A stretch of 64,000 bases of DNA from the NCBI RefSeq assembly GCF_002858765.1, contig NZ_PJRP01000025.1:1-64000 (forward strand). The letters run 5' to 3'. The stretch's first letter is position 1, and each line of letters starts with the position of its first letter. The notes under the pieces were generated by a model, which saw nothing but the letters and a program-made list of their open reading frames with translations, searched no databases and was not told the DNA's origin. The stretch comes from Cupriavidus pauculus. Lineage in GTDB: Bacteria; Pseudomonadota; Gammaproteobacteria; Burkholderiales; Burkholderiaceae. Of this stretch, positions 26,695 through 52,107 are shown one piece after another. A program made the translations under genes and the position numbers.

Positions 26695-26796
26695 GTCTCG
26701 TCTCCTTGATGTGATGCGAACGCCTGGTGCATTGCCGGGCGATGGGTGCCATGTCTCGGGAGTCGACTGTACGGACGCCCCCGCGCCGTGTCGTGC

Positions 26797-26847
26797 TCCG
26801 AACGAACCAATTTGCATGCTGCAGTGCGATTGGTCCGAACGGACCAA
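26797..26847. promoter_or_regulatory. Operator between divergent acyl-CoA operons
   Basis: TTGGTCCGAACGGACCAA (26830-26847) is a perfect 8-bp-arm palindrome with an AA centre. A second, imperfect copy (TCCGAACGAACCAA, 26797-26810) lies 37 bp away centre to centre. They sit in the 207-bp region between the CoA ligase (26694, minus) and the racemase-like gene (26902, plus). This suits a TetR-family acyl-CoA-responsive repressor controlling both directions. The regulator is not identified here. Confidence 0.6.
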
Positions 26848-26901
26848 GACAGCCCCCGGCCCCGATGAAAGAATCGGCCGGACTTCAACACCACGGGTGA
26901 C

Positions 26902-28107: not shown

Positions 28108-28130
28108 CAGACCAGACCAAGGAGACTGAC

Positions 28131-29117: not shown

Positions 29118-29287
29118 AGGCCCGACTGAAGGCTCGGCTAAGGGCTTGACGGGCAAGGCAGGACGGGGGTCGGCGCCCCCGCTATCGCTTCAACAAAGCC
29201 CACCTTCAACAAATGCAAATTGCCTGACCGGCGGGCGTGTCGCAAAGTCTCTCCAACAACAGCCTGATACAGAAACAGGAGGAGACG

Positions 29288-30250
29288 ATGCTGCGAATCA
29301 TGCTTGCCGGCGCGGTGCTGGCGCTGGCCCACGGAGCGGCCCTGGCCGACACCTATCCCTCGCGCCCGGTGCGCCTGCTGGTCGGCTATGCGCCGGGCGG
29401 CCCCGTGGACACCGCCGCGCGCATCTACGCGGACTACATGGGCCGCGTGCTCAAGCAGCCGGTCATCGTCGACAACCGCGCCGGTGCCAGCGGCGCTATC
29501 GCGGCCGGCATGACCACCAGCGCCAAGCCGGACGGCTACACGCTCTATTTCGTGGCCAGCCCCACGATGACGATGACGCCGCTGATCCAGAAATCGGTCA
29601 GCTTCAAGCCGGCGCAGGACTTCAGCTACGTGGGCCTGATCACCGACTACACCAACGTCCTGCTGATCAACAAGGATTTCCCGGCCAAGAACGTGGACGA
29701 ACTGGTGTCGTACGCGCGCAAGCATCCGGGCGACGTGAGCTTCGGCTCGGCCGGCATCGGGGCGTCGAACCACCTGTCCGCCGAACTGCTGGCGCAGATG
29801 ACCGGCGTAAAGATGCTGCATGTGCCGTACAAGGGCAACGCGCCGGCCATGGCCGACGTCATCAGCGGCAAGGTCACGTTCATGTTCGATATCACCGGCA
29901 CGGCCATCGGCCATATCCAGGGCGGCAAGGTGCGCGCGCTGGCCGTGACGTCCAAGACCCGCAACGCTGCGCTGCCGACGGTGCCCACGCTGATCGAATC
30001 TGGGCTCAAGCAATATGACCTGACAGGCTGGTACGGCCTGGTGGGTCCGCTCGGCATGCCCGCCGATGTCACCGACCGGCTGGTCAAGGCCCAGCAGACC
30101 GTTGGGCAGGACCCCGCGTTCCGCGCCCGCATGACCGATGGCGGCTACGACCTCAACATTACAGGCCCGGCGCCGCTGCAAGACCGCATCAAGAAGGAAC
30201 TGGCCCTGTGGGGCAACGTGGTCAAGACGGCCAATATCGAGGTGGAATAA
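29288..30250 (+). CDS. Bug-family periplasmic solute receptor (2)
   Basis: The 320-residue receptor has a Sec signal (MLRIMLAGAVLALAHGAALA) and the usual Bug segments: VRLLVGYAPGGPVDTAARI, VDNRAGASGAIAAG, KPDGYTLYFV, VPYKGNAPAMADVISGKV. AGGAGGAGACG lies directly before the ATG. It is only moderately similar to its neighbour at 28131, so the pair is probably an old duplication with different ligands rather than a recent copy. It lies between the racemase-like gene and a CoA ligase on the same strand. Confidence 0.9.
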   Translation: MLRIMLAGAVLALAHGAALADTYPSRPVRLLVGYAPGGPVDTAARIYADYMGRVLKQPVIVDNRAGASGAIAAGMTTSAKPDGYTLYFVASPTMTMTPLIQKSVSFKPAQDFSYVGLITDYTNVLLINKDFPAKNVDELVSYARKHPGDVSFGSAGIGASNHLSAELLAQMTGVKMLHVPYKGNAPAMADVISGKVTFMFDITGTAIGHIQGGKVRALAVTSKTRNAALPTVPTLIESGLKQYDLTGWYGLVGPLGMPADVTDRLVKAQQTVGQDPAFRARMTDGGYDLNITGPAPLQDRIKKELALWGNVVKTANIEVE

Positions 30251-30415
30251 GCCGGCCGGCCCGGGCAGCACCGTTCCGCCCGGGCGAAGTACCGCTTTCC
30301 CGATGACGAATTGCGCAGCCTTCGGGCTGGCCATACACTGCGACGAGCCGGTATCCGCCTGACGGCGAAGCCGGCGCCACTCCGAAATCCACTCTCTGCA
30401 AAGGACTTGAGCGAG

Positions 30416-31948
30416 ATGCCGCAGGACCGAGCCATCGCGAATCGCATCAGCGACATTCCCCGCCATTGGGCAGCCCATGCGCCCGACCACGTGGCCGTGC
30501 ATGAAGGCGAGCGCACGGTGAGCTTTGCGCAACTCTGGGAAGGCGTCGGGCTGGCGCGGCAGTATCTGGAATCCCAGGGGGTTGGCACCGGCGACCGCGT
30601 CATGATTACCGGCGAGAACTGCCTGGCCGTCATCACGCTGGTCTTTGCGCTGTCCGAACTGGGCGCGTGGCCGGTGGTGACCAATGCCCGGTTGACGGCC
30701 CGCGAGATCGAGGAAATCCGCGCGCACTGTACGCCCCGGCTGATGCTGTTCACGCACGCGGCGTCCCCCGATGCCCTGCGCCACGGCCTGCGCTACCGCG
30801 CCCGCGAGATCGCGCCGCCGGGGCTGGGCCCGCTGATGGCCGCCGATGTGGACGACCGCAGCGAGCGCGAGCCGCAGGCGCTGGCGCACGAGGTGGCCGC
30901 GCTGATCTACACGTCCGGCACCACGGGCCAGCCCAAGGGCGTGATGGTCACGCATCGCGGCCTGCTGCACTATGCGCGCGTCACGGCCGACACCCGCAAG
31001 ATCGGGCCGGGCGACTGCGCCTACGCCGTGATGCCGATGTCCCATATTTTCGGGCTCGCCACGCTGCTGCTGGCCACCTTCCAGGGCGGCGGCAGCCTGT
31101 ACCTGGTGGCCCGGTTCAACGTCACCGACGCGTGCGCCGCGCTGCAACGCGAGGCCATCTCGATCCTGCAGGGCGTGCCGGCCATGTTCAGCCGTATCCT
31201 GGCGCACCTGCAGAAGCAGGGCATCGCCACCCTGCACCCCAAACGCCTGCGCTATCTCTATACCGGTGGCGGGCCGCTGGAGCCCACGCTCAAGCGCAAC
31301 GTCGAAGCCGTGTTCGGCCAGCCGCTGCACCATGGCTATGGCATGACCGAATACGCGGGCTCGCTGTTCATCACCCGCATGGACCGCCCGCGCAGCGACT
31401 GCTCCGCCGGCGAGATTGTCGAAGGGGCCGAACTGCGCATCGTGGGCGCCAACGGCGAAACAGTGCCGCCGGGCACGGCTGGCGAACTGTGGGTGAAAGG
31501 CCCCGGGGTCATGCGCGGCTACTATCGCGATCCGGCGCAGACGGCGGAAGCCCTGCGCCCGGAAGGCTGGCTCAACACGGGCGATATTGGCCGACTGGGG
31601 CCCGATGGCGCGCTGTATATCGTCGGGCGCACGCGCGACCTGATCATCCGCTCAGGCTTCAGCGTCTATCCGATCGAGGTGGAATCGGTCATCAACACGC
31701 ACCCGGCGGTGCGGCTGTCCGCCGTGGTCGGCAGGCCGGCGGCCGATGGCAACGAGGAGATCGTGGCGTTCGTGGAGCTTCGAGAGGGCGAGACGTTCGA
31801 TGCTGGCGAACTGCACGCCTATCTTGCGGAGCGGCTGTCGCCCTACAAGCGCCCCGTGCAGATCGTGCGCGTACCGGCCATTCCCACGACCGCCAGCGGC
31901 AAGCTGCACAAGCACCAGTTGCGCGGCATCGTCGCCGAGATGGCCTAG
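30416..31948 (+). CDS. AMP-forming acyl-CoA synthetase
   Basis: The 510-residue ANL ligase shows YTSGTTGQPKGVMVTH, HGYGMTEYAGS, LNTGDIGRLGPDGALYIVGR, IIRSGFSVYPIEVE and TTASGKLHKHQLR with the catalytic Lys. It closely resembles the ligase at 34928-36457 in motif wording (YTGAGPLDLSLK against YTGGGPLEPTLK), so the two look like paralogues. AAAGGA lies 11 bases before the ATG at 30416. It ends 42 bp before the convergent LysR gene. Confidence 0.9.
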   Translation: MPQDRAIANRISDIPRHWAAHAPDHVAVHEGERTVSFAQLWEGVGLARQYLESQGVGTGDRVMITGENCLAVITLVFALSELGAWPVVTNARLTAREIEEIRAHCTPRLMLFTHAASPDALRHGLRYRAREIAPPGLGPLMAADVDDRSEREPQALAHEVAALIYTSGTTGQPKGVMVTHRGLLHYARVTADTRKIGPGDCAYAVMPMSHIFGLATLLLATFQGGGSLYLVARFNVTDACAALQREAISILQGVPAMFSRILAHLQKQGIATLHPKRLRYLYTGGGPLEPTLKRNVEAVFGQPLHHGYGMTEYAGSLFITRMDRPRSDCSAGEIVEGAELRIVGANGETVPPGTAGELWVKGPGVMRGYYRDPAQTAEALRPEGWLNTGDIGRLGPDGALYIVGRTRDLIIRSGFSVYPIEVESVINTHPAVRLSAVVGRPAADGNEEIVAFVELREGETFDAGELHAYLAERLSPYKRPVQIVRVPAIPTTASGKLHKHQLRGIVAEMA

Positions 31949-31990: not shown

Positions 31991-32893
31991 TCAGGCCGGG
32001 TTGCCGGTGCCGTCTTCCACCAGCAGGTCCACCAGCTTGCGTGCGAACACCGGCAGCGCGTCCAGGTCCGCCACGCAAATCTGCAGCTTGCGCTCGGCCC
32101 AATCGTCCTCGATCTGCACGATATTGAGCGCCATGGTCTGCGCATGGCGGCGCGCCGTGCTCTCCGGCAGCACGCCGATGCCAACGTTGGCCTCGATCAT
32201 GCGCCCCGCCGTCTCGAAATTGCTGACCTGGATGCGCCAATGCAACTGGCGCTGCAGGTCGGAGGCCGCGCGTTTCAGGAAGTTGTGGATCGCGCTGTCC
32301 TCGGGCAGGCCGATGAAGTCGTAGTCGAGCGTCTCGACAAACCGCACGCGCTTGCGCTGGGCCAACGGGTGGCTCAACGCCGTGGCCAGTACCAGGCGGT
32401 CCAGCCGGTAGGGCATCACTTCGAGTCCTTCCATGTTGACGCCGCTGGCAGCGATGCCGATATCGACCATGCCTTCCTGCACGGCCCGTACGATGTCCGG
32501 GCTGAGCCGCTCGCGGATGTCGACGGTCACGTCGGGATGATTGACCAGGTACGTACGCAGCACCCCCGGCAGGAACTCGCTCATGGCCGTGGTGTTGGCG
32601 AATACGCGCACATGCCCCTTGATGCCCGACGCATACTCCTGCAGGTCGCCGCTCAGTTGCTCGATCTGCCGCAGCACGCGGCGCGCGTGGGCCAGCAGCG
32701 TCTCGCCGGCGGGCGTGACCTTGACGCCCTGGCTGCTGCGGCTCAGCAGCTTGACGCCCACCTGCTCTTCCAGGTTCTTGATGCGCGTGCTGGCCGCCGG
32801 CAGCGACAGGTGGCAACGTTCTGCACCGCGGGTCAGGCTGCTGGCTTCCGCAATATGCGTGAAGAGATTCAGATCGACCAGATCGAAGCGCAT
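31991..32893 (-). CDS. LysR-family transcriptional regulator
   Basis: The 300-residue regulator has an N-terminal winged helix (LNLFTHIAEASSLTRGAERC, then SLPAASTRIKNLEEQVGVKL). The periplasmic-binding-protein-like effector domain (GIAASGVNMEGLEVMPY; NVGIGVLPESTAR) follows. It is divergent from the enoyl-CoA hydratase gene (173-bp gap) and convergent with a CoA ligase gene, so one of these acyl-CoA units is its likely target. It is also a candidate regulator for the shared promoter block of nemA and the AKR, but nothing links them directly. Confidence 0.9.
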   Translation of the reverse strand: MRFDLVDLNLFTHIAEASSLTRGAERCHLSLPAASTRIKNLEEQVGVKLLSRSSQGVKVTPAGETLLAHARRVLRQIEQLSGDLQEYASGIKGHVRVFANTTAMSEFLPGVLRTYLVNHPDVTVDIRERLSPDIVRAVQEGMVDIGIAASGVNMEGLEVMPYRLDRLVLATALSHPLAQRKRVRFVETLDYDFIGLPEDSAIHNFLKRAASDLQRQLHWRIQVSNFETAGRMIEANVGIGVLPESTARRHAQTMALNIVQIEDDWAERKLQICVADLDALPVFARKLVDLLVEDGTGNPA

Positions 32894-33066
32894 TGTCGTT
32901 GTCTCCAGGGTAGCCGACGATTATCCCCCGAACGCCGGCATTTTTTCCATTCTCGCAATTACGGAGGTGTCTTCACTGCCGGCGAATGCCGGATTCAAAA
33001 CATGCAAATTGCCGCGCGGCCGCGCATGGGTCAAGCTGTGCCATCGAACCCTCATGGAGACACCCG

Positions 33067-33861
33067 ATGGCAGAAGAACAGACCCTGCTGGTGGACATCG
33101 CGGACGGCATTGCCACGCTGACGCTGAACCGCCCCCAGTACAAGAACGCGCTGAACGGGCCGATGCGCGACGCCCTGCGCGAAGCCGTGCAGCAGATCCG
33201 CGCCGACCGTACGGTACGCGCCGTGGTGCTGCGCGGTGCCGGCACCGACTTCTGCTCGGGTGGCGATATCCGCGCCATGAACGTCACCGATGCCGCATCC
33301 GGCCGCAACCGCATGGACGACCTGCACGGCTGGATCGCCCTGCTCGTCGACCTGGACCGCCCGGTCGTGGCGGCGGTGGATGGCGTGGCGTACGGTGCCG
33401 GCTTCAGCCTGGCACTGTTGGCCGATTTCATCGTGGCCACGCCGCGCGCACGCTTCTGCATGCCGTTCATGAAGGTTGGCCTGGTGCCCGATTGCGGCGC
33501 GCTGTACACGCTGCCACGCGTGGTGGGCATGGCGCGCGCCCGGGACCTGGTCTTCAGCGCGCGCGAAGTGGGCGCGGAAGAAGCCAGGCAGATCGGGGCG
33601 GTGTTCGAGATCGTCGAGCAGGAGCAGCTTTACGCCCGCGCCGACCAGCTCGCACGCGGCCTGGCGGGCGCGTCGCCCGTGGCGTTCGCGCTCACCAAGC
33701 GTGCGCTGAACCAGTCGAATGCCGCCGACTTGCGCACCATGCTGGAACTGGAATCGCTCGGTCAGGGCATCGCGTTCACCACCGACTACCACCACGAGGC
33801 CGTGCGCCGCTTCAAGGAAAAGGAAACGCCACTGTTCCAGTGGCCAACTTCGGCAGACTGA
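33067..33861 (+). CDS. Enoyl-CoA hydratase/isomerase (PaaG-like)
   Basis: The 264-residue crotonase-fold enzyme has oxyanion-hole segments GTDFCSGGDI (60-68) and GVAYGAGFSLALLAD. Where hydratases carry the second catalytic Glu it has Asp142 (MKVGLVPDCG), and the first Glu is absent, as in PaaG/ECI-type isomerases. It therefore may isomerise or hydrate enoyl-CoAs rather than act as a standard crotonase. GGAGACACCCG precedes the ATG. It is divergent from a LysR gene. Confidence 0.85.
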   Translation: MAEEQTLLVDIADGIATLTLNRPQYKNALNGPMRDALREAVQQIRADRTVRAVVLRGAGTDFCSGGDIRAMNVTDAASGRNRMDDLHGWIALLVDLDRPVVAAVDGVAYGAGFSLALLADFIVATPRARFCMPFMKVGLVPDCGALYTLPRVVGMARARDLVFSAREVGAEEARQIGAVFEIVEQEQLYARADQLARGLAGASPVAFALTKRALNQSNAADLRTMLELESLGQGIAFTTDYHHEAVRRFKEKETPLFQWPTSAD

Positions 33862-33947: not shown

Positions 33948-34931
33948 TCAACCCGCCGTAATCCCTGCCGTCTGGATCACCTTGCGCCACTTCTCGATTT
34001 CGCTGTGCAGGCGCTGGCGCATCTGCTCCTGCGTGCCGGCATCCGCCTCGGCGCCAGCCTGCAGCAGCCGTTGCTTGACGCCGGCGTCCTTCATGGCGAC
34101 GTTGAAGTCGGCATTGATCTTGTCGAGGATCGGCTTCGGCGTCTGGGCCGGCGCGAACAGCGCGGCCCAGGAATAGGCCTCGTAGCCGGGCAGTCCCGAT
34201 TCGGCGACGGTCGGCACGTCGGGCAGCATGCCCGAGCGCTTGCGGCTGGCCACGCCCAGCACCTTGATACGTCCCGACTTGATATGTTGCAGCGCGGTAG
34301 GCGCGTCGCTGAACATCAACTGCACCTGGCCGCCCAGCAGGTCGTTCATGGCCGGGCCGCTGCCCTTGTACGGCACATGCTGCAGCTTGGTGCCCGCCTC
34401 CATGTTGAACAGTTCGCCCGCCAGGTGCGTGCCGCCGCCGTTGCCGGACGACCCGTAGGCCAGCGTGTGGCCGCTCTTGGCGTAGGCGATCAGCTCCTTG
34501 ATGCTGCTGGCCGGCACCGAGGGATGGGCGACGACGAACACCGGGAACATCGCGGCAAAACTGACCGGCGCGAAGTCCTTTTCGATGTCGTACGGCAGCT
34601 TGCCCATCAGCGACGGGTTGACCGCGTGATGGATCGACCCCAGGAACAGCGTGTAGCCGTCGGGCGCTTCCTTGGCCGCGATGGTGGCGCCAATGGTGCC
34701 GCCCGCGCCAGCGCGGTTGTCGATGACGATCGGGTTCTTCCAGATCTCGCCCAGCTTCTGGCTGAAGATGCGCGCCGTGCTGTCCACCGGACCGCCAGGC
34801 GGAAATGGCACGATCAGGCGCACGGGCTTGGTCGGCCACGTTTCCGTGGCAAACGACGCAAACGGATACGCTGCGGCGCCGAACAGGCCGGCGGCCAACA
34901 GGCGCCTGCGCATGGCGGACGATGGGTTCAT
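33948..34931 (-). CDS. Bug-family periplasmic solute receptor (3)
   Basis: The 327-residue receptor begins with a basic signal peptide (MRRRLLAAGLFGAAAYPFASFA) and contains LIVPFPPGGPVDSTARIFSQ, VIDNRAGAGGTIGA, APDGYTLFLG, HVPYKGSGPAMNDLLGGQ and PDVPTVAESGLPG. Its start overlaps the stop of the upstream CoA ligase by four bases (34928-34931). Ligase and receptor are therefore co-translated, suggesting that the receptor captures the acid which the ligase activates. This is the best functional link among the three Bug proteins here. Confidence 0.9.
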   Translation of the reverse strand: MNPSSAMRRRLLAAGLFGAAAYPFASFATETWPTKPVRLIVPFPPGGPVDSTARIFSQKLGEIWKNPIVIDNRAGAGGTIGATIAAKEAPDGYTLFLGSIHHAVNPSLMGKLPYDIEKDFAPVSFAAMFPVFVVAHPSVPASSIKELIAYAKSGHTLAYGSSGNGGGTHLAGELFNMEAGTKLQHVPYKGSGPAMNDLLGGQVQLMFSDAPTALQHIKSGRIKVLGVASRKRSGMLPDVPTVAESGLPGYEAYSWAALFAPAQTPKPILDKINADFNVAMKDAGVKQRLLQAGAEADAGTQEQMRQRLHSEIEKWRKVIQTAGITAG

Positions 34932-36457
34932 GCTGGGTCTCCTTGGGTCGACATCGAACCGGCCTGCTCCTGCAGCACACGCTTGAGGATCTTGCCGTTG
35001 TTATTGGTAGGCAGTTCGGCCAGCGCCACAATGCGGGCCGGGCGCTTGTACGGGGCCAGGCGGCTGTGCAGGTGGCTGCGCAGCGCCTCCGGTTCCAGCG
35101 CCGCGCCGGGGCGCAACTCGACGAAGGCGACGATTTCCTCGTTGCCGTCGCCCTCGGCCACGCCAACCACGGCAGACCGCTGGATGCTCGGATGCGTGTT
35201 GAGCGCCCCCTCCACCTCGGCCGGATAGACGTTGAAGCCCGAGCGGATGATCATCTCCTTGAGGCGGCCGACCACGAACAGCGCGCCATCGGCGTGCATC
35301 TCGCCCAGGTCGCCGCTGGCGTACCAGCCGCCCTCGCGCATCACGGCTTCCGTCGCCGCGGCATCGCGGAAGTAGCCCGGCATCAGCCCCCTGCCCCGCA
35401 GCCAGAGTTCGCCGCGCTGGCCCAGCGGCAAAGGCTGACCGGTCATGGGATCGGTCACCTGCACCTCGGCCTCGGCCACGGCATAGCCGGCGCTGGTATC
35501 GGGGCGCTGATCGCCCAGGCGCGTGACGTGGACCGATCCGGCGTATTCGGATAGCCCATAGCCATGGTGCAGCGTCAGGCCGAACGTAGCCTCCACGCGC
35601 GTCTTCAGCGACAGGTCGAGCGGACCCGCGCCGGTGTAGAGGTAGCGCAACGCCGGCGCCACCGGCTGCGCGATGCCCTGCTCCTGCAGATAGGCCAGCA
35701 GCCGCGAGAACAGCGTGGGCGGCCCCTGCAACTGCGATACGCCGTGATGGGCCAGCGCGTCGAGCAGATCGGCGGGATCGAACTGCGGCCGCATCACCAG
35801 CTGAGCGCCAGCCAGCAGCGAACTGAGCAGCACCGTGCCAAGGCCGAAGATATGGGTCATCGGCACGAAGGCATAGCTGCGGTCGGTCGGGCCCAGTGCA
35901 CGGGCCTCACGGGTCACCCGCGCGAAATGGATCAGCGCGTCGTGCGTCAGCATCACGCCCTTTGGCTCGCCCGTGGTGCCGGACGTGAAGATCAGGGCGG
36001 CCACCTGGTCGCGCAACGGCGCCGGTTCCTGCATCGCATCGGCTCGCACGGCAGAACGATGCATGCCGGGCAGCGCCGATGGCGCGGCCCTGAAGCGTTC
36101 GGCGTGCCCGGCGGCGGCGCGCGACGCCGTGGCGGTGAAGTACACCACCCTGGCATCGGCCCGGGCGGCGAAGGCGTCGATTTCGCCCGCGGCCATGCGC
36201 GCATTGACGCCACACGACCATGCGCCCACGCGGCTGCAGGCCAGGATCAGCGCGGCGTGCTCGGGACAGTTCTCGGCCACCACCATCACGCGGTCACCGG
36301 GCCGCACATCAAGCTCGCGCAGTTCCGCTTCGGCCGTATCCGTCAGCGCGCCCAGCGCGGCAAAGCTGACGCTGCGGCCGTCCGGCAGGTGGAGAAACGG
36401 TTGATCGGGGGCCTCGGCCAACCAATGGTCAAGCAGCTCATGAATCCGGGTGGTCAC
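34928..36457 (-). CDS. AMP-forming acyl-CoA synthetase coupled to a Bug receptor
   Basis: The 509-residue ANL ligase shows FTSGTTGEPKGVMLTH, HHGYGLSEYAGS, YASGDLGEMHADGALFVVGR, IIRSGFNVYPAEVE and NNNGKILKRVLQE. A GTG at 36457-36455 (VTTRIHELLDHW) with AAGGAC upstream is the preferred start. An ATG further up at 36619 would add about 54 residues with no family resemblance. It overlaps the Bug gene by ATGA and is divergent from the igr-like ACAD operon, so it is a good candidate activating ligase for that pathway. Confidence 0.88.
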   Translation of the reverse strand: MTTRIHELLDHWLAEAPDQPFLHLPDGRSVSFAALGALTDTAEAELRELDVRPGDRVMVVAENCPEHAALILACSRVGAWSCGVNARMAAGEIDAFAARADARVVYFTATASRAAAGHAERFRAAPSALPGMHRSAVRADAMQEPAPLRDQVAALIFTSGTTGEPKGVMLTHDALIHFARVTREARALGPTDRSYAFVPMTHIFGLGTVLLSSLLAGAQLVMRPQFDPADLLDALAHHGVSQLQGPPTLFSRLLAYLQEQGIAQPVAPALRYLYTGAGPLDLSLKTRVEATFGLTLHHGYGLSEYAGSVHVTRLGDQRPDTSAGYAVAEAEVQVTDPMTGQPLPLGQRGELWLRGRGLMPGYFRDAAATEAVMREGGWYASGDLGEMHADGALFVVGRLKEMIIRSGFNVYPAEVEGALNTHPSIQRSAVVGVAEGDGNEEIVAFVELRPGAALEPEALRSHLHSRLAPYKRPARIVALAELPTNNNGKILKRVLQEQAGSMSTQGDPA

Positions 36458-36678
36458 GCTAGCCGTCCTTGCTGAATGCGGTGAAGAGGTCCGCGCAGCA
36501 TGGCGCCAAAGCCGGGCCGGCGCCATTCGTAAATCACAAGGGTCGGCTTCGCTGGCCTGAAACCGCGCTGCGGAATGCGGCGCCGTGCATTTCGGTATCC
36601 GGAAGGCTGGATTCGGCAATCTCGAACCAGCGTGGCGTGCACGCCCATAGAATCGTTTTCACTGACCGGAGACAGTTC

Positions 36679-37872
36679 ATGGACCTGCGTTTCACAAGAG
36701 AAGAAGAATCCTTCCGCGAGGAAGTCGGCGCCTTTGTGCGGGCCAGCCTGCCCGCCGACATTCGCGACAAGGTGCTGGGCCATCGCCGCGTGGAGAAGGA
36801 CGACTACGTGCGCTGGCACCGTATCCTGCACGCCCAGGGCTGGGGTGCCCCGACGTGGCCCACGGAATGGGGCGGCACCGGCTGGAAAGCGCTGCAACGC
36901 CTGATCTTCGAGATCGAGACATTCCGCGCCGGCGCGCCGCGCATGCTGCCGTTCGGGCTGACGATGATCGGCCCGGTGCTGATGAAATACGCCAGCGCCG
37001 AGCACAAGGCGCGCTTCCTGCCGCGCATCCCGACCGTGGACGACTTCTGGTGCCAGGGATACTCCGAGCCGGGCGCCGGTTCCGACCTGGCGTCGCTGCG
37101 GACCCGCGCAGTGCGCAAGGGCGACAAGTACATCGTGAACGGCCAGAAGACCTGGACCACGATGGCGCACTTTGCCGACTGGATCTTCTGCCTCGTGCGC
37201 ACGGACACCGAGGTCAAGCCGCAGGAAGGCATCTCGATGCTGCTGATCGACATGAAGTCGCCCGGCGTGACGGTGCGGCCGATCAAGACGCTGGACGGCG
37301 GCCACGACGTGAACGAGACCTGGTTCGAGGACGTGGAAGTGCCGGTGGAAAACCTGCTGGGCGAGGAAAACAAGGGCTGGACGTACGCCAAGTACCTGCT
37401 GGGCCACGAGCGCACCGGCATTGCCGGCATCGGCCACTGCTATCGCGAGCTGCGCCAGCTGCGGCACTACGCGGCCGAGACCACCGACGGCCGGGGCCGC
37501 CCGCTGATCGAGGACGTGCGCATGCGCGACAAGATCGCCCGCGTGGAAATGGATCTGCTGGCGCTGGAGATGCTGCTGTTGCGTGTGGCGACCCAGGCCG
37601 CCGGCACGCCGGGCCCCGAGGCCTCCATGGTCAAGATTCGCGGCTCCGAACTGCAGCAGGACATCGCGATGCTGCAGATGGAAGTGGCCGGCCCCAATGG
37701 TTGGCCGTACTCGCCGGACTGGATGGAGCCCGGCGCGCCGCAACCCGTGAGCGGCCCGGACTGGGCCGCCCCTGCGGCATCGACCTACTATGACATGCGC
37801 AAGACCACGATCTACGGCGGCTCGACCGAGGTCCAGAAAAACATCATCTCGAAGATGATCATCGGTTTCTAA
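36679..37872 (+). CDS. Acyl-CoA dehydrogenase, catalytic subunit of a probable heteromer
   Basis: The 397-residue ACAD has intact motifs: GYSEPGAGSDLASLRTRAVR, VNGQKTWTTMAHFADWIF and the C-terminal TIYGGSTEVQKNIISKMIIG with the presumed catalytic Glu. The family resembles the FadE28/FadE26-type subunits of steroid-degrading heterotetramers. CCGGAGACAGTTC precedes the ATG at 36679. It lies 17 bp before a second, degenerate ACAD. It would dehydrogenate a short branched side-chain acyl-CoA. Confidence 0.9.
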   Translation: MDLRFTREEESFREEVGAFVRASLPADIRDKVLGHRRVEKDDYVRWHRILHAQGWGAPTWPTEWGGTGWKALQRLIFEIETFRAGAPRMLPFGLTMIGPVLMKYASAEHKARFLPRIPTVDDFWCQGYSEPGAGSDLASLRTRAVRKGDKYIVNGQKTWTTMAHFADWIFCLVRTDTEVKPQEGISMLLIDMKSPGVTVRPIKTLDGGHDVNETWFEDVEVPVENLLGEENKGWTYAKYLLGHERTGIAGIGHCYRELRQLRHYAAETTDGRGRPLIEDVRMRDKIARVEMDLLALEMLLLRVATQAAGTPGPEASMVKIRGSELQQDIAMLQMEVAGPNGWPYSPDWMEPGAPQPVSGPDWAAPAASTYYDMRKTTIYGGSTEVQKNIISKMIIGF

Positions 37873-37889
37873 CGCAGGGGACGACAGGC

Positions 37890-39005
37890 ATGGATTTCAC
37901 CTACAGCGAAGAACAGCAGATGCTGGCCGACAGCCTGCGCCGCTTTGTCGCATCCGAGTATGCGTTCGAGCATCGCCGCCGCAATGCGCGCGAACAGGGC
38001 GGCTTCGACCGCGCCACGTGGCGGCAACTGGCGGAGATGGGCGTGCTGGGCCTGACCGTGCCGGCCGACCATGGCGGCTTTGGCGAAGGCCCGACCAGCC
38101 AGGTGGTGGTGCAACGCGAACTGGGCCGTGGGCTGGTGCAGGAGCCGGTGATTCCGGCGGCCATCGCCGCGGCCATCCTGGCGCACCATGCGCCGGTCGC
38201 GCAGCAGGCCGAATGGCTGCCGGCCATCGCCGATGGCAGCAAGATCGTGGCACTGGCTTACCTGGAACCCGCCACGCGCTATCGCCTGGACACCGCCCAG
38301 ACCGTGGCGCGCCAGCGCGAGCCGAATGGCTACGTGCTGCGCGGCACGAAATCGGTGGTGTGGCATGGCGGGGCCGCCGACACCTATCTGGTCTCGGCCA
38401 TGCTCGACGGCACGCTGGCACTGTTCCTGGTCAGCCACGACGCCCCGGGGCTGAGCGTGACCACCTATCCCACCATCGACCGCCTGTCCGGCGCCGACCT
38501 GCAACTGGCCGACGTGCCGGCCACGCTGGTGACCGTCGACGGGCTCCGGGCGCTGGAACTGGGCATCGACCACGGCATTGCCGCGCAATGTGCGGCGGCG
38601 GCCGGCGCGATGGAGCGGCTGATCGAGATCACCGCCGAATACCTGGGCGCGCGCAAGCAGTTCGGCAAGCCGCTGGCATCGTTCCAGGCGCTGCAGCACC
38701 GCATGGCCGACATGCTGGTGCAGAAGGAACTGGCGCTGTCGATGGCCTACGTGGCCGCGCAGGGGCTGGACGCCACCGATGCCGACGAACGCCGCCGCAA
38801 GGTAGCGGCCGCAAAGGTCGTCACGGCGCGGGCGGCACGCTTTGTCGGCCAGCAGGCCGTGCAATTGCACGGCGGCATGGGCATGACCGACGAACTCGAG
38901 GTGGGCGACTACTTCAAGGCCCTGGCCATGACCGATGTGCTGCTCGGCGACACCGACCTGCACATGGAGCGCTACACCGCCACCATGGCCGCGATCGCGG
39001 CCTGA
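37890..39005 (+). CDS. Acyl-CoA dehydrogenase-like partner subunit (degenerate active site)
   Basis: The 371-residue ACAD fold has an intact core (DFTYSEEQQMLADSLRRFV; LQHRMADMLVQKELA; VQLHGGMGMTDELEVGDYFK). The usual (S/T)EP-x-AGSD loop reads LEPATRYRLD (about 125-134). The C-terminus LLGDTDLHMERYTATMA has no GG(T/S)xE catalytic Glu. This is the hallmark of the non-catalytic partner in alpha2beta2 ACADs such as ChsE1-ChsE2. It follows the catalytic subunit by 17 bp. Confidence 0.85.
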   Translation: MDFTYSEEQQMLADSLRRFVASEYAFEHRRRNAREQGGFDRATWRQLAEMGVLGLTVPADHGGFGEGPTSQVVVQRELGRGLVQEPVIPAAIAAAILAHHAPVAQQAEWLPAIADGSKIVALAYLEPATRYRLDTAQTVARQREPNGYVLRGTKSVVWHGGAADTYLVSAMLDGTLALFLVSHDAPGLSVTTYPTIDRLSGADLQLADVPATLVTVDGLRALELGIDHGIAAQCAAAAGAMERLIEITAEYLGARKQFGKPLASFQALQHRMADMLVQKELALSMAYVAAQGLDATDADERRRKVAAAKVVTARAARFVGQQAVQLHGGMGMTDELEVGDYFKALAMTDVLLGDTDLHMERYTATMAAIAA

Positions 39006-39042
39006 CGAACACCATACGGAACACCAGACGGAAGACACACCG

Positions 39043-40209
39043 ATGACAATCAATGGCAAGGCATATATCGTCGGGGCCTACGAGCACCCGACCCGCAAGG
39101 CACCGGACAAGACCGTGCCGCAACTGCACGCCGAATGCGCCCGTGGCGCGCTGGAAGACGCCGGCCTGACACTGGCCGACGTGGACGGCTATTTCTGCGC
39201 CGGCGACGCACCCGGCCTGGGCATGGTCAACATGGTCGACTACCTGGGCCTGAACGCACGCCATGTGGATTCGAGCGAAATGGGCGGCTCGTCCTATATC
39301 GCGCACGTCTCGCACGCAGCCCAGGCGATTGCCGCCGGCAAGTGCAATGTGGCGTTGATCACGCTGGCCGGGCGCCCGCGCTCGGAGGGTTCCAGCGGCA
39401 CGCAGGCCCGCAACTGGGGCGCGAACCTGCCCGACCAGCCGTTCGAGGCGCCGTTCAGCCCGGTGACGGTCAACCTGTATGCGATGGTGGCGCAGCGCCA
39501 CATGTACGAGTTTGGCACCACGCCCGAGCAGCTTGCGTGGATCAAGGTGGCTGCCTCGCACCACGCCCAGCACAACCCGAACGCAATGCTGCGCGAGCTG
39601 GTAACGGTGGAAGACGTGCTGAATTCGCCGATGATCTCCGACCCGCTGCACCGGCTGGACTGCTGCGTGGTGTCCGACGGTGGCGGCGCGCTGATCGTGG
39701 CGCGCCCCGAGATCGCGGCGAAGCTGAACCGGCCGAAGATCAAGGTGCTGGGCGCGGGCGAACACGTGAAGGGCCTGCTGGGCGGCCAGGTGGATCTGTC
39801 ATGGTCCGCCGCGCGCGTGTCCGGCGCGGCGGCGTTCGCAGAGGCGGGCGTTACGCCATCCGACATCCAGTACGCGTCGATCTACGACAGCTTCACCATC
39901 ACCGTGCTGATGCAGCTGGAAGACCTGGGCTTCTGCAAGAAGGGCGAAGGCGGCAAGTTCGTGATGGACGGCAACCTGATTGCGGGCGTGGGCAAGCTGC
40001 CGATCAACACCGACGGCGGCGGCCTGTGCAACAACCATCCGGCCAATCGCGGCGGCATCACCAAGGTGATCGAGGCCGTGCGCCAGTTGCGTGGCGAGGC
40101 CAACCCGGCCGTGCAGGTCAAGAACTGCCAGCTTGCGCTGGCCCAGGGGACCGGCGGCTACATGGGGTCGCGCCATGGCTCGGCCACCCTGATCCTGGAA
40201 CGCGAATAA
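39043..40209 (+). CDS. Cys-less thiolase-fold protein, probable Ltp2-type retro-aldolase
   Basis: The 388-residue thiolase-fold protein lacks the thiolase nucleophile: residue 82 is Gly (SSEMGGSSY) where Cys82 sits in the homologue at 23896. The HDCF motif is replaced by YDSF (Tyr281), GHPxGATG by NHPANRGG (His332), and the C-terminal Cys loop by TGGYMGSRHG (Tyr373). Tyr residues replacing Cys/His are known in Ltp2 steroid side-chain retro-aldolases. The next gene is a DUF35 protein, the known partner of Ltp2 enzymes. Predicted reaction: retro-aldol cleavage of a tertiary 3-hydroxyacyl-CoA to a ketone and a short acyl-CoA. Lipid transfer is an alternative. Confidence 0.78.
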   Translation: MTINGKAYIVGAYEHPTRKAPDKTVPQLHAECARGALEDAGLTLADVDGYFCAGDAPGLGMVNMVDYLGLNARHVDSSEMGGSSYIAHVSHAAQAIAAGKCNVALITLAGRPRSEGSSGTQARNWGANLPDQPFEAPFSPVTVNLYAMVAQRHMYEFGTTPEQLAWIKVAASHHAQHNPNAMLRELVTVEDVLNSPMISDPLHRLDCCVVSDGGGALIVARPEIAAKLNRPKIKVLGAGEHVKGLLGGQVDLSWSAARVSGAAAFAEAGVTPSDIQYASIYDSFTITVLMQLEDLGFCKKGEGGKFVMDGNLIAGVGKLPINTDGGGLCNNHPANRGGITKVIEAVRQLRGEANPAVQVKNCQLALAQGTGGYMGSRHGSATLILERE

Positions 40210-40223
40210 GCGCGAGGCTACCG

Positions 40224-40631
40224 ATGACCACTCCCTACGTTCCCACCGTTTTCAAGGCCCCGGACGAACTGCCCGACAACGCGCCGTTCTGGCAAGCCGC
40301 CCGCGAAGGCCGCCTGCTGGTGCGCCACTGCAAGTCGTGCGGCAAACCCCACTGGTACCCGCGCGCACTGTGCCCGTTCTGCATGGGCGACACCGACTGG
40401 AAAGACGCCAGCGGCCTGGGCGAGATCTATTCGTTCAGCATCACGCGCCGTGCCGGCCCCCATCCGTTCTGCATCGCCTATGTGAAGCTCGATGAAGGCG
40501 TAACCATGCTGACCCATATCGTCGATACCGACCTGGACAGCGTGCGCATTGGCCAGCGCGTGAAGGTGCGCTTTGCCGAGACCGAGGGCGGCGCGCCAGT
40601 GCCTGTCTTCGCGCCGGCCGAAGCGGCCTGA
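40224..40631 (+). CDS. DUF35 zinc-ribbon/OB-fold partner protein
   Basis: The 135-residue protein has an N-terminal helix (PFWQAAREGRLLVRHCKSCG), a rubredoxin-like zinc ribbon with Cys36, Cys39, Cys50 and Cys53 (CKSCG...CPFC), and a C-terminal OB fold (GLGEIYSFSITRRAG; PFCIAYVKLDEG). DUF35 proteins present acyl-CoA to thiolase-like enzymes and are obligate partners of Ltp2 aldolases (ChsH2 C-terminal half). GAGG precedes the ATG. It lies 14 bp after the thiolase-like gene and 13 bp before the MaoC gene. Confidence 0.9.
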   Translation: MTTPYVPTVFKAPDELPDNAPFWQAAREGRLLVRHCKSCGKPHWYPRALCPFCMGDTDWKDASGLGEIYSFSITRRAGPHPFCIAYVKLDEGVTMLTHIVDTDLDSVRIGQRVKVRFAETEGGAPVPVFAPAEAA

Positions 40632-40644
40632 AGCGGAGCACCCG

Positions 40645-41538
40645 ATGGCGATCCGCTACCAGCACCTGCGCAACCGCGACTTTTCCCCGGTGCGCCAGCA
40701 CTACACCCTGCGCGACACCATGCTGTACGCGCTAAGCCTGGGCCTGGGCAACGACCCGATGGATGCGTCGGCCCTGCCCTTCGTCTACGAAGGCACGCCG
40801 GGCGGCCTGCGCGCACTGCCGTCGCAGGCCGTGGTGCTGGGCTATCCCGGCTTCTGGGCCCGCGAGCCCGATACCGGCATCGACTGGGTCAAGCTGCTGC
40901 ACGGCGAGCAGCGGCTGCGGCTGCATCGCCCGCTGCCCGCCGATGCCGAGGTGGTGGGCCACAACCGCATTACCCACCTGACCGACAAGGGCGCGGGCAA
41001 GGGAGCCATCATGGTCACCGAGCGCCGGCTGGAAACCGTGCAGGGCGAACTGCTGGCGACGATCCAGCAGGTGTCGTTCCTGCGCGGCGACGGCGGCTAC
41101 AGCCAGCAGGACGGCGGCCAGCCCAGCGACGAACCGTTGCCGGCGCTGCGCCCGGTGCCCGAAGACCGTCCGCCCGATTTCGTCGATACCCAGCCCACGC
41201 GCCCCGAAGCGGCGCTGCTGTACCGGCTTATGGGCGACTTCAATCCGCTGCACGCCGATCCGGCCGTGGCCAGCGCCGCCGGGTTCGAGCGACCGATCCT
41301 GCACGGCCTGGCCAGCTACGGGCTGGTGGCCCACGCGCTGCTGCGGCAATGCGCGGGCCATGACCCGGCACGGCTGCGCGCGTTCGATATCCGCTTTACC
41401 GCGCCGGTCTTTCCCGGTGAAACGCTGGTGACCGAGATCTGGCGTGATCCGCAGCATGCCGGCCAGTTCCAGTTGCGTGCCAGGGTGCTGGAACGCGACA
41501 AGGTCGTGCTCAGCCATGGCTGGGCCGAGATTGCGTGA
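40645..41538 (+). CDS. Double hot-dog MaoC enoyl-CoA hydratase
   Basis: The 297-residue protein has two hot-dog halves. The N-terminal substrate-binding half runs to about residue 150 and the C-terminal half carries the hydratase-2 motif YRLMGDFNPLHADPAVA, then GFERPILHGL. It would hydrate the enoyl-CoA formed by the paired ACADs to the tertiary alcohol cleaved by the thiolase-fold aldolase. GGAGCACCCG precedes the ATG at 40645. It is fifth in the 36679-42870 plus-strand run. Confidence 0.88.
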   Translation: MAIRYQHLRNRDFSPVRQHYTLRDTMLYALSLGLGNDPMDASALPFVYEGTPGGLRALPSQAVVLGYPGFWAREPDTGIDWVKLLHGEQRLRLHRPLPADAEVVGHNRITHLTDKGAGKGAIMVTERRLETVQGELLATIQQVSFLRGDGGYSQQDGGQPSDEPLPALRPVPEDRPPDFVDTQPTRPEAALLYRLMGDFNPLHADPAVASAAGFERPILHGLASYGLVAHALLRQCAGHDPARLRAFDIRFTAPVFPGETLVTEIWRDPQHAGQFQLRARVLERDKVVLSHGWAEIA

Positions 41539-41577
41539 ACGCCCTCCCCCTGATTCGCTTCGCCTGATTCCTTTGCT

Positions 41578-42870
41578 ATGACCGCTTCCCACGAATCCAC
41601 CCCCGGCCTGCCGCCGCCGTCGCGGCAGACGGGCGCACTCAGCCATCTGCGCGTGCTCGACCTTTCCCGCGTGCTGGCGGGCCCATGGTGTACGCAGAAC
41701 CTGGCCGACATGGGCGCCGACGTCATCAAGATCGAGAAGCCCGGCGCCGGCGACGACACCCGGCACTGGGGGCCACCGTACCTGGATGGCGACGACGGCC
41801 CGACGCGCCAGGCCAGCTACTTCGCGGCGTGCAACCGCAACAAGCGCTCGGTGACCGTGGACATTGCCACGGCCGAAGGACAGAAGCTGGTGCGCGAGCT
41901 GGCGCAGCAGAGCGACGTGGTCATCGAGAACTACAAGACCGGCAGCCTCAAGCGCTACGGGCTCGACTACGAGACGCTCAGCGCGCTGAACCCGCGCCTG
42001 GTCTACTGCTCGATTACGGGCTTCGGCCAGACCGGACCCTACGCGGCCCGGCCCGGCTATGACCTGCTGGTGCAGGCCATGAGCGGGCTGATGAGCATCA
42101 CGGGCCAGCCCGATGGCGAACCCGGTGGCGGGCCGCTGCGCGTGGGCGTGGCGGTGATCGATCTATTCACGGGCATGTATGCCACCACCGCCATCCTTGG
42201 CGCGATCGAGGCCCGGCATCACACCGGGCGCGGCCAGCGGATCGACATTGCGCTGCTCGACGTGGCCATGGCGGTACTGGCCAACCAGGGTGCCGGCTAT
42301 CTGAATGCCGGCGTGGTGCCGACGCGCCAGGGCAATGTGCATCCCAGCGTGGTGCCATATCAGGACTTCCCGACCCGGGACGGCAACATGCTGCTGGCCA
42401 TCGGCAACGACGGCCAGTTCGCGCGCTTCTGCGAGGTGGCCGATGTCGACTGGGCACGCGACGAGCGCTACGCCACCAACAGTGCCCGCGTGACCCATCG
42501 CGACACGCTGATTCCGATGATGAGCGACGTCACTCGCGCGAAGTCGACCCACGAATGGATCGGCCTGCTTGAGGCGGCTTCGGTGCCATGCGGCCCGATC
42601 AACAACATCGGGCAGGCATTTGCCGACGAGCACGTCCAGCATCGCGGGCTGCGCGTGGAGCAGTACCGCTATGCGACGGCCGACCGCCCGGCAGAGGATA
42701 CCGTCAACCGGATCTGCTCCACGGCCAGCCCGCTGCGATTGTCCGACACGCCGCCCACGCTGCGCCACGCGCCGCCCGCGCTGGGCCAGCACACGGACGA
42801 AGTGCTGCGGGATTGCCTGGGTCTCGGTCCGCAAGCCGTAGCGGACCTGCGGACCAAGGGCGTGCTGTAG
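41578..42870 (+). CDS. Family III CoA-transferase (CaiB/BaiF)
   Basis: The 430-residue transferase shows LRVLDLSRVLAGPWCTQNLA, NRNKRSVTVDI, ITGFGQTGPYAARPGYD and VIDLFTGMYA, with Asp195 at the position of the catalytic Asp of formyl-CoA transferase. Unlike the protein at 26902 it lacks the GHDINY racemase motif. It probably moves CoA between a product acid and a substrate acid. It lies 39 bp after the MaoC gene and is probably in the same operon. Confidence 0.88.
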   Translation: MTASHESTPGLPPPSRQTGALSHLRVLDLSRVLAGPWCTQNLADMGADVIKIEKPGAGDDTRHWGPPYLDGDDGPTRQASYFAACNRNKRSVTVDIATAEGQKLVRELAQQSDVVIENYKTGSLKRYGLDYETLSALNPRLVYCSITGFGQTGPYAARPGYDLLVQAMSGLMSITGQPDGEPGGGPLRVGVAVIDLFTGMYATTAILGAIEARHHTGRGQRIDIALLDVAMAVLANQGAGYLNAGVVPTRQGNVHPSVVPYQDFPTRDGNMLLAIGNDGQFARFCEVADVDWARDERYATNSARVTHRDTLIPMMSDVTRAKSTHEWIGLLEAASVPCGPINNIGQAFADEHVQHRGLRVEQYRYATADRPAEDTVNRICSTASPLRLSDTPPTLRHAPPALGQHTDEVLRDCLGLGPQAVADLRTKGVL

Positions 42871-42882: not shown

Positions 42883-43551
42883 ATGCGGCTCAGCATCGAG
42901 TCGGCATCGCATCTGCGCCTGGCGCGGCTCGTGCCGGCGTTTCCGATGACGGTGACGGCCACGCGCGGCACGGCCGTGATGCGGCGTAACGGCTTCGCGC
43001 GCACGCTGGTGCCCGGGCTGCCCTGCATCGTCGAGCCATTCCATGGCGTCGACCTGCTGGTGACCGGTTGCGCGGGGCAGCCGGCCGGATGTCGGATCGA
43101 GATCGCGCCGGCCAGCGACACGGGCGACCACCGTCTGCTGCATCGCGCGCTGTCGCGGCGAATCTTCCTGCAGCCGGACTTGCCCTGGAGCGCCGATTTC
43201 GCGGCCGAATTGCTTGGGGAGTCGCCCAGGCAAATCCGGCGCACGCTGTTTGCGGAGGGCGCAGCCTTCGGCGACCTGTGCCGGACACAGCGCCTGATGC
43301 GGCTGCTGTTTGAGTCCACGCACGGGCATCGCGGGCATGCCAGCCTGGGTTCGCTGAAGCGCCGCATGGGATGGCCGGCGAGCCATGATCTGGAATCGTC
43401 GTTTTATGACCGGTTTGGCATCACGCTCGACGTGCTCCGGCACGTGACAGATGGCGGCGACGCTTCGCCCGGCACCGGCGCCCGCGCCAACCCTTCCGCC
43501 CGGCTTGTGCCTCCAATCGCGCACTATTGGCCCAGCCTATCCCCCGCATAA
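42883..43551 (+). CDS. AraC-like transcriptional regulator
   Basis: The 222-residue protein has a C-terminal half that fits an AraC/XylS DNA-binding domain. The first HTH reads LLGESPRQIRRTLFAEGAAF and the second GWPASHDLESSFYDRFGITL. The N-terminal ~100 residues (cupin-like or unknown) give no recognised effector domain. It starts 12 bp after the CoA-transferase stop, so it is probably an operon-encoded regulator of the 36679-42870 unit. Similarity to AraC is judged by pattern only. Confidence 0.65.
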   Translation: MRLSIESASHLRLARLVPAFPMTVTATRGTAVMRRNGFARTLVPGLPCIVEPFHGVDLLVTGCAGQPAGCRIEIAPASDTGDHRLLHRALSRRIFLQPDLPWSADFAAELLGESPRQIRRTLFAEGAAFGDLCRTQRLMRLLFESTHGHRGHASLGSLKRRMGWPASHDLESSFYDRFGITLDVLRHVTDGGDASPGTGARANPSARLVPPIAHYWPSLSPA

Positions 43552-51883: not shown

Positions 51884-52021
51884 ATGCAAATGGAAAACCA
51901 GAACCTCAACGCACAACCGACCAACAAGGGCCTGCTGGCCGTCTTCTGGCTCTACGTGCTCGTACCGCTGGTGTGGGGTGTGTCGAACACCATCACCCAG
52001 GCGATGAAGCTGTTCCACTAA
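51884..52021 (+). CDS. MFS transporter small subunit, 45 aa
   Basis: The short gene begins ten bases after the OFA transporter stop, with AGGAG just before its ATG. The product is polar at the N-terminus (MQMENQNLNAQPTNK) and then has a single membrane helix (GLLAVFWLYVLVPLVWGVSN) ending in TITQAMKLFH. Peptides of this kind are conserved behind OFA-type transporters and are presumed to assemble with them. It is followed by the interrupted terminator. Confidence 0.8.
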   Translation: MQMENQNLNAQPTNKGLLAVFWLYVLVPLVWGVSNTITQAMKLFH

Positions 52022-52050
52022 GCGCCTGCCCTTCCCGGGCACGCACCGAA

Positions 52051-52062
52051 GGCCGCAAGCGA
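52051..52062 (+). terminator. Left half of an intrinsic terminator split by the IS
   Basis: GGCCGCAA (52051-52058) is the 5' arm of the OFA operon's terminator, and GCGA (52059-52062) its loop, now the left target-site copy. The 3' arm and T-tract lie beyond the element at 53516-53537. Confidence 0.85.
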
Positions 52063-52102: not shown

Positions 52103-52107
52103 TTTTC

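Follow-up and report, generated by a model that had tools for sequence, protein, structure and literature searches.

The thiolase-fold aldolases that have been characterised act on steroid side chains (PMC12329534) and, less fully described, on ibuprofen (PMC9195938). According to the mechanistic parts of PMC12329534, catalysis involves Tyr294 and Tyr344 in Ltp2 of Thermomonospora curvata (TcLtp2) and Tyr302 and Cys304 in Sal of Comamonas testosteroni (CtSal); the base Tyr is required in both enzymes, and the CtSal replacements C304S and C304H abolish activity. The same source mentions partnerships of DUF35 proteins with thiolase folds elsewhere, namely in the acylase PhlABC and the HMG-CoA synthase complex, and a slow decarboxylation of malonyl-CoA by TbSLP. 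For ibuprofen, the introduction of PMC9195938 names propionyl-CoA and 4-isobutylcatechol as the products of a retro-aldolase, and its discussion speaks of an ipfDE-encoded thiolase. Here we describe an operon of Cupriavidus pauculus that encodes a related protein, THIO, together with a DUF35 protein, a pair of acyl-CoA dehydrogenases (ACAD1 and ACAD2), a MaoC-type hydratase and a CaiB-type transferase of coenzyme A (CoA). It lies in a stretch of 64,000 nucleotides (contig NZ_PJRP01000025.1, positions 1 to 64,000; the window) that belongs to a 7.4 Mb genome. We consider it slightly better than an even bet (a probability of roughly 0.55) that the operon serves a catabolic, aldolytic beta-oxidation of a CoA-activated non-steroid carboxylic acid, organised around a putative branch of DUF35-dependent aldolases with a Tyr/His pair. 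The genes concerned are the following:

36679..37872, plus strand: ACAD1, PimC-like acyl-CoA dehydrogenase, predicted large (catalytic) subunit (Pfam ACAD N/M/C; TIGR03204; Glu244)
37890..39005, plus strand: ACAD2, PimD-like acyl-CoA dehydrogenase, predicted small subunit without recognisable catalytic Glu (Pfam; TIGR03203)
39043..40209, plus strand: THIO, Cys-less thiolase-fold protein, proposed retro-aldolase, with Gly81/Gly82, Tyr281 and His332 (NF006010, residue census, tree, AlphaFold2 model)
40224..40631, plus strand: DUF35 zinc-ribbon/OB-fold partner with the C4 finger Cys36-Cys39-Cys50-Cys53 (PF12172 and PF01796 above cut-off)
40645..41538, plus strand: MaoC, free-standing enoyl-CoA hydratase 2 of the multifunctional enzyme type 2 (MFE-2) kind, with Asp198/Asn200/His203 (PF22622 and PF01575 above cut-off)
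41578..42870, plus strand: CaiB-type (family III) CoA-transferase (PF02515, 420.5 bits)
42883..43551, plus strand: ORF222, a conserved, fast evolving open reading frame (ORF) with function-less annotation, possibly co-transcribed (recurs in sister loci)

A first-pass annotation, made from the DNA alone, had described the first five of these genes (36679-41538) as a module like the actinobacterial igr locus in a betaproteobacterial setting. The five genes are real, all on the plus strand, each with a Pfam match above cut-off, and tightly packed (gaps of 17, 37, 14 and 13 bases, in the order ACAD1, ACAD2, THIO, DUF35, MaoC), and the host, a member of the genus Cupriavidus, is indeed betaproteobacterial. 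The run had been ended too early, for the CaiB gene starts 39 bases 3' of MaoC; gaps of only 13-39 bases through to CaiB point to an operon of at least six genes (36679-42870), of which ORF222 may be a seventh.

The evidence that carries our reading lies in the active site of THIO. The protein belongs to the family PRK08142/NF006010 (764.1 bits, curated cut-off 462), named 'thiolase domain-containing protein', and the records seen for NF006010 and for its solved relative 4u4e assign no function. In an alignment with four solved relatives its nucleophile column holds Gly, so that the catalytic Cys is lost, as the first-pass annotation had it. Gly in this column, Tyr in the column of Ltp2-Y294 and His in that of Ltp2-Y344 recur in 80/80 sequences from named genomes and 29/29 from an order-level sample, a census of relatives by selection that covers the THIO family and its sister clade rather than the superfamily; the same three columns read C/H/H in the thiolase 7yvy, G/Y/Y in TcLtp2 and G/Y/Q in CtSal. 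The hallmark of the aldolase class, i.e. no nucleophilic Cys combined with a base Tyr in YDxF/Y, is present in all 109 sequences, the middle residue of YDxF being Ser in 97, Ala in 10 and Cys in two, which read YDCF. An SCP2-type thiolase was considered for THIO and rejected, because Gly replaces the nucleophilic Cys and Tyr the His of HDxF in 109/109. Neither known aldolase acid (Tyr344 of Ltp2, Cys304 of Sal) is present, the corresponding residues being His332 and Ser283; with Ser283 in the CtSal Cys304 column, THIO must therefore be assumed to use another acid, and as both published acid residues are missing, the candidate is His332, chosen solely from its place in the alignment. Two more Cys-less thiolase-like genes occur in the same genome (G000:C3:49346-50413 and G000:C29:13123-14238), both adjoining a DUF35 match and with Tyr and His in the same columns.

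The partners of THIO in the operon fit a sequence of dehydrogenation and hydration. ACAD1 carries Glu244 in a HER motif and Gly380 at the column of the base of the medium-chain acyl-CoA dehydrogenase (MCAD) type, positions to which we assign their presumed catalytic roles; Glu244 is kept in 10/10 ACAD1-like matches above 250 bits in the named loci. ACAD2 has no Glu in the Glu244 column, no YGG/YEG motif and neither base position. This is the pattern expected of an alpha/beta acyl-CoA dehydrogenase with one catalytic subunit, and the two proteins would form a heteromer. MaoC is a single two-domain chain of 297 amino acids of the MFE-2 type, with PF22622 in its N-half, PF01575 in its C-half and the motif Asp-x-Asn-Pro-x-His; its best solved match is peroxisomal multifunctional enzyme type 2 (1s9c), and Asp198/Asn200/His203 are kept in 5/5 MaoC matches above 150 bits in the named loci. 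The first-pass assignments of paired alpha/beta-type dehydrogenases, a DUF35 partner gene and a MaoC hydratase are borne out by Pfam and motif evidence, as is the separateness of the DUF35 protein (135 amino acids) from the hydratase. Its equation of MaoC with ChsH1 fails on the two-domain architecture and on the absence of MaoC from 2/10 sister operons. CaiB scores 487.9 bits against NF052585 (below the cut-off of 750); its closest named family is succinate-glutarate CoA-transferase, below cut-off. No short-chain dehydrogenase/reductase (SDR) or 3-hydroxyacyl-CoA dehydrogenase was found among the 13 Pfam-scanned genes of 29.2-43.6 kb. An aldolytic round would call for just such a combination of no recognised 3-hydroxyl dehydrogenase in the operon and a missing Cys; a dehydrogenase could instead act from elsewhere.

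What the sequence shows directly is the set of genes and how closely they are packed, the loss of the Cys, the presence of Tyr and His, and repeated association with dehydrogenase pairs. From this we infer the following reactions, the ACAD1-ACAD2 and THIO-DUF35 complexes and the function of His332 as acid. Either the CaiB transferase or the AMP-forming ligases encoded nearby, or both, would provide the acyl-CoA, from which the ACAD1-ACAD2 heteromer, with Glu244 of ACAD1 as base, would form the 2-enoyl-CoA; hydration by the MFE-2-type MaoC would give the 3-hydroxyacyl-CoA. In place of thiolysis, THIO, held with DUF35, would cleave the C2-C3 bond in a retro-aldol reaction, in which Tyr281 takes the proton of the 3-hydroxyl and His332 returns a proton to the enolate; this would release a short acyl-CoA together with either an aldehyde or a ketone.

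Structural comparison places THIO near the known aldolases. Its AlphaFold2 model has a predicted local distance difference test score (pLDDT) of 84 and a predicted template modelling score (pTM) of 0.89, with residues 199-205, 324-327 and 329-334 below a pLDDT of 50. Its VIA-align Z scores are 47.8 with CtSal-Shy(DUF35) (9myr), 47.1 with Ltp2-ChsH2(DUF35) (6ok1) and 46.3 with 4u4e, the last two being tied, followed by TbSLP (44.4), archaeal thiolases (43-44), SCP2 thiolases (about 38-41) and classical thiolases (about 32). In the predicted structure the nearness to CtSal is firm and that to TcLtp2 over the archaeal thiolases modest, and a shared fold does not amount to function. The likeness to Ltp2 proposed in the first-pass annotation stands as far as the overall fold is concerned, and fails at the second Tyr, replaced by His332. 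In a 34-row tree, midpoint-rooted and with long branches, two thiolases and no more than four solved reference sequences, the THIO family forms a clade of its own (100/100), joined by the 4u4e clade (97/96), with CtSal and TcLtp2 outside; on this tree, membership of THIO in Ltp2 or Sal was rejected. Nor does the family group with true thiolases in this tree, a check that the first-pass reading passes, being apart from both 7yvy and the thiolase of a neighbouring gene set (module B, below). We regard THIO as a likely variant, not a proven member, of the DUF35-dependent thiolase-fold aldolases.

The DUF35 protein has ChsH2(DUF35) (6ok1_B) as its best solved match. We followed the pair in the best 80 of at least 592 confirmed stretches of named genomes (68-90% identity to THIO; up to 9 kb on each side, often less), a scan from which records very close to the window's genome may be missing. 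In 78/80 of these loci THIO has a DUF35 gene on its own strand no more than 150 bases away, and 72 of the 78 keep the C4 zinc finger (CCCC); of the remaining two loci, one is on a contig that ends 127 bases on, and L088 shows no DUF35 gene over 2.7 kb. The window order ACAD1-ACAD2-THIO-DUF35-MaoC occurs in 0/80, so that the five-gene block as a widely conserved unit is rejected; together with the 78/80 adjoining DUF35 genes, this identifies the THIO-DUF35 pair, by gene order, as the unit that travels. An adjoining ACAD1-ACAD2 pair is found in 9/80 loci across beta-, gamma- and alphaproteobacteria, MaoC in 4/80, and both in 3/80 (Bradyrhizobium, Verticiella and a Comamonadaceae isolate). In the order-level sample 32/200 genomes have a THIO match (E <= 1e-60), and a search of plasmid records gave 574 matching records, 537 of them below 60% identity. 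We tentatively propose, at somewhat less than even odds, that the DUF35-dependent thiolase-fold retro-aldolases include a third mechanistic class, represented by THIO, with Tyr281 as base and His332 as acid. This class would occur in many Proteobacteria and, by a few records, in other phyla, with no visible steroid link, and would have been joined repeatedly by dehydrogenase pairs and hydratases.

Within the genus, 60 Cupriavidus genomes were sampled for THIO (E <= 1e-100, 87 matches) and ACAD2 (E <= 1e-60, 190 matches). THIO matches occur in 53/60 genomes, and the closest listed relative, in Cupriavidus sp. EM10, is 97.7% identical. ACAD2 lies directly 5' of THIO in 11 genomes and MaoC 3' in 10, i.e. 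nine of these eleven plus the incomplete genome G210, which has no ACAD2 match there; the six-gene order ACAD1-ACAD2-THIO-DUF35-MaoC-CaiB is contiguous in 9/60, the window included. In ten sister loci, chosen for sharing the arrangement, the genes ACAD1-ACAD2-THIO-DUF35-(MaoC)-CaiB all point the same way, the matches being 13-116 bases apart, and CaiB ends the run in 10/10. The ratios of non-synonymous to synonymous substitution rates (dN/dS), computed against the window genes for up to ten loci, are 0.02-0.06 for THIO, 0.03-0.12 for ACAD1, 0.01-0.13 for DUF35, 0.04-0.12 for MaoC (8 loci), 0.04-0.15 for CaiB and 0.12-0.26 for ACAD2; the six genes from ACAD1 to CaiB are under purifying selection (0.01-0.26). 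An ACAD2 homologue is found no more than 3 kb away from at least 21 of the 87 THIO genes, that of the window among them, where random placement, with kinship ignored, would give 0.38; the 21 is a lower bound counted by hand and pools both Cupriavidus arrangements; the company of THIO and ACAD2 exceeds chance. In the second arrangement (ten cases) THIO is 75-76% and ACAD2 43-46% identical and the two are about 1.1 kb apart, with a Bug receptor gene between them in the loci read, and it perhaps serves another substrate. The order in L144 and L154-L157 is ACAD1-ACAD2-Bug-THIO-DUF35-CaiB, with an ATP-grasp CoA-ligase-like protein upstream, and in L154 genes for a LigB-type protein and RraA-like proteins follow CaiB.

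Several observations weigh against an aldolytic operon. Ser283 stands where CtSal requires Cys304, and His332 aligns with the His of the ordinary thiolase motif GHP and may merely be retained from an ancestor; the loop that holds it has a pLDDT below 50, so that the predicted geometry is unreliable. By Foldseek E-value the order is 4u4e, 9myr, the thiolase 7yvy and 6ok1, which puts 7yvy above TcLtp2, and phmmer gives the identical order (311, 199, 160 and 154 bits). Among the operon genes there is no aldehyde dehydrogenase. MaoC is present in 8/10 sister loci, CaiB following directly after DUF35 in G158 and G203, and no adjoining dehydrogenase pair was seen in 71/80 named loci within the stretch examined, some of these being cut by contig ends. 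Some Cupriavidus carry THIO-DUF35 as a solitary pair. Finally, in the Cupriavidus genome G202 (L141, 9412-17045) close homologues of MaoC, CaiB, the ligase and LysR1 surround a classical thiolase (by family) and a butyryl-CoA:acetate-type CoA-transferase in place of THIO-DUF35, which looks as if the cleaving enzyme was exchanged.

Some of these points, and others, feed alternative explanations. The nearest NCBIfam models for ACAD1 and ACAD2 are those of pimeloyl-CoA dehydrogenase, PimC (TIGR03204) and PimD (TIGR03203), and no ChsE1/E2 model was seen among their NCBIfam matches; that they correspond to fadE28/fadE29, as proposed at first pass, is possible, their closest solved chains being steroid ones. 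In the random-barcode transposon sequencing (RB-TnSeq) results of PMC12543098, a PimCD-like pair is needed for growth on C8-C12 dicarboxylates in Ralstonia sp. CL21, and the paper mentions similar pairs in three further betaproteobacteria, one of them a Cupriavidus. The operon might on these grounds degrade dicarboxylic acids, medium-chain or branched ones, by a route of the PimCD type, with THIO handling one intermediate and general beta-oxidation the rest, and the likeness of CaiB to succinate-glutarate CoA-transferase would agree with this. We regard such a route as unlikely. Membership of ACAD1 and ACAD2 in PimCD was rejected on the curated cut-offs, to which both fall well short (488.6 bits against 623.85, and 299.5 against 652.7), and a second PimCD-like pair in the same genome (G000:C2; 56% and 41% identical to ACAD1 and ACAD2) reaches 525.7 and 338 bits, more than the operon's pair on either model though likewise below cut-off, and is a stronger candidate for the established dicarboxylate role; moreover, the Cys-less thiolase is left unexplained.

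Since the travelling pair mostly lacks dehydrogenase and MaoC partners and has diverse neighbours, as in C. neocaledonicus, where it stands beside a pirin gene, it may act in another way, by transferring acyl groups, by Claisen or aldol condensation, by decarboxylation or by binding CoA esters, and may have been recruited to the operon by chance. The varied activities of PhlABC, the HMG-CoA synthase complex and TbSLP would suit this explanation, which we hold to be about as improbable as the dicarboxylate route or a little more so. The Cys is absent in 109/109 sequences of the THIO family, and acyl-transferring relatives such as PhlC and BbsB presumably depend on it; dehydrogenase pairs, in addition, recur beside THIO.

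An ordinary thiolytic beta-oxidation, in which THIO is an atypical thiolase without the usual Cys or an accessory to a thiolase from elsewhere, would account for the thiolase fold, the GHP-like His332, the rank of 7yvy above TcLtp2 by sequence score and the classical thiolase within the related gene set of G202; it is very unlikely in view of Gly at the nucleophile column and Tyr for the HDxF His throughout the family, and of an operon with no dehydrogenase to make the 3-ketoacyl-CoA. A true igr module that removes propionyl-CoA from steroid or bile-acid side chains is scarcely credible: the same five activities are present by content, among solved chains the dehydrogenases come closest to two steroid pairs, 4x28 and 6wy8/6wy9 (ACAD1 with 207 and 179 bits, ACAD2 with 116 and 127), and a betaproteobacterial igr is described in the C. 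testosteroni work of PMC12502768, but the second catalytic Tyr is replaced by His, the clade is separate from Ltp2 and Sal, the hydratase is of different architecture, and the genome has no match to KshA_C, the sole marker searched, in a search without strong positive control (0/14 controls passed the cut-off).

Upstream of the putative aldolytic operon lie further genes:

34928..36619, minus strand: AMP-forming acyl-CoA ligase, divergently oriented (PF00501, ORF)
33948..34931, minus strand: Bug/TctC substrate-binding receptor (PF03401)
32986..33861, plus strand: crotonase-family protein, ECH (PF00378)
31991..32893, minus strand: LysR1 regulator (PF00126, PF03466; position kept in sister loci)
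30311..31948, plus strand: LIG2, second AMP-forming acyl-CoA ligase (PF00501 over 30416-31945; position kept in sister loci)
29237..30250, plus strand: second Bug/TctC receptor (PF03401)

These flanking genes (BUG-LIG2-LysR1-ECH-BUG-LIG) recur in the sister loci, some being lost, cut off or missed by the gene caller. The coupling of ligase and Bug receptor reported at first pass is confirmed by a 4-base overlap of stop and start (34928-34931, minus strand); the first start of the ligase (TTG) is doubtful and the real one perhaps nearer 36526. The crotonase-family protein is perhaps a delta3,delta2-enoyl-CoA isomerase: it has the Asp of GLVPD and, by eye, lacks both hydratase Glu, if the roles we assume for these residues are right. 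On the other side of the operon, ORF222 has no Pfam match up to E = 5 and is found in 5/10 sister loci (E <= 1e-20; 60-73% identity; dN/dS 0.23-0.46); a relative of 198 amino acids adjoins the LysR1 homologue in G202 (L141). Next to the island lies module B (20989-29117, i.e. 20.9-29.1 kb), a complete-looking thiolytic beta-oxidation set with an acyl-CoA dehydrogenase, an SDR, two small hot-dog proteins, an SCP2-type thiolase, an AMP ligase, a CaiB protein and a Bug receptor. Its thiolase retains the Cys (NNNCATGS, HDCF, GHPLG), the first motif having been read by eye as the residue census misaligned this protein at the Cys and gave Gly in that column. At 52001-54000 of the window GC drops to 0.60, and ORFs in 52081-53477 match a transposase helix-turn-helix and an integrase core, an IS3-like pair.

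Our literature search, which lay mostly outside subscription journals, found no paper on the THIO family, in Cupriavidus or otherwise, or on a Tyr/His aldolase, and a search on non-steroid aldolytic clusters gave nothing further on the family. If the proposed reading is true, aldolytic beta-oxidation would be a general bacterial way of removing acyl-CoA units, and aldolytic chain shortening would extend far beyond steroids; a large family annotated as thiolase or acetyl-CoA acetyltransferase would be misnamed, and a new C-C lyase/ligase scaffold would become available for biocatalysis.

Compared with the known systems, the locus shares with Ltp2-ChsH2(DUF35) of T. curvata (6ok1) and the igr locus the Cys-less thiolase fold, the Tyr of YDxF, the DUF35 protein, the dehydrogenase pair and a nearby MaoC; it differs in having His332 in place of the second catalytic Tyr and in its separate clade. 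The igr hydratase consists of two MaoC chains (ChsH1 and ChsH2N), to one of which DUF35 is fused, whereas here a single MFE-2-type chain and a separate DUF35 protein are encoded, the dehydrogenases are nearer to PimCD-like pairs by named models, and there is no sign of a steroid route. Membership of the operon in igr is rejected for want of the paired catalytic Tyr and for the different hydratase architecture, so that the igr-like description given at first pass applies in outline (gene content, Cys loss, DUF35) and not in its details. This concerns in particular the proposed removal of a C3 unit: both reported propionyl-CoA releasers, TcLtp2 and IpfD, have Tyr at the second position where the THIO family has His, which is the main reason to doubt it.

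IpfDE of the ibuprofen plasmid pIBU218, where we identified IpfD as the gene adjoining the one that contains the published ipfE primers, shares a non-steroid substrate, the missing Cys, the base Tyr (YDAF) and the adjoining DUF35 gene (PMC9195938 for the published part). It differs in identity (32%), in Tyr at the His332 (Ltp2-Y344) column and in acting, as PMC9195938 outlines, after a dioxygenase and not after a dehydrogenase and hydratase. The IpfD gene (L158, 4634-6232), with its Ltp2-like second Tyr, is recorded as a hypothetical protein, and its DUF35 partner appears by eye to be without the four-Cys zinc finger. Sal-Shy of C. testosteroni (9myr), as far as described in PMC12329534 and PMC11321319, resembles our pair in the best Z score, Gly at the Cys site, the base Tyr and a DUF35 partner, and differs in Cys304 (YDCY) and in Gln where THIO has His332. 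In Shy, MaoC and DUF35 are fused and the finger is of the C3H1 kind (PMC12329534), whereas the separate DUF35 protein here has a C4 finger as in TcChsH2.

PimCD is the closest named model for both dehydrogenases, yet both fall below its cut-offs. By sequence the nearest solved relative of THIO is 4u4e of Sphaerobacter thermophilus, 45% identical, with the same Gly, Tyr and His and in the sister clade. ORF40-44 of C. testosteroni TA441, as presented in PMC12502768, combine a betaproteobacterial dehydrogenase pair, hydratase, aldolase and DUF35, and differ in a fused MaoC-DUF35 protein and in their position within a 120 kb steroid gene region. A betaproteobacterial igr equivalent was already published there, so that such a setting, noted at first pass, is not new.

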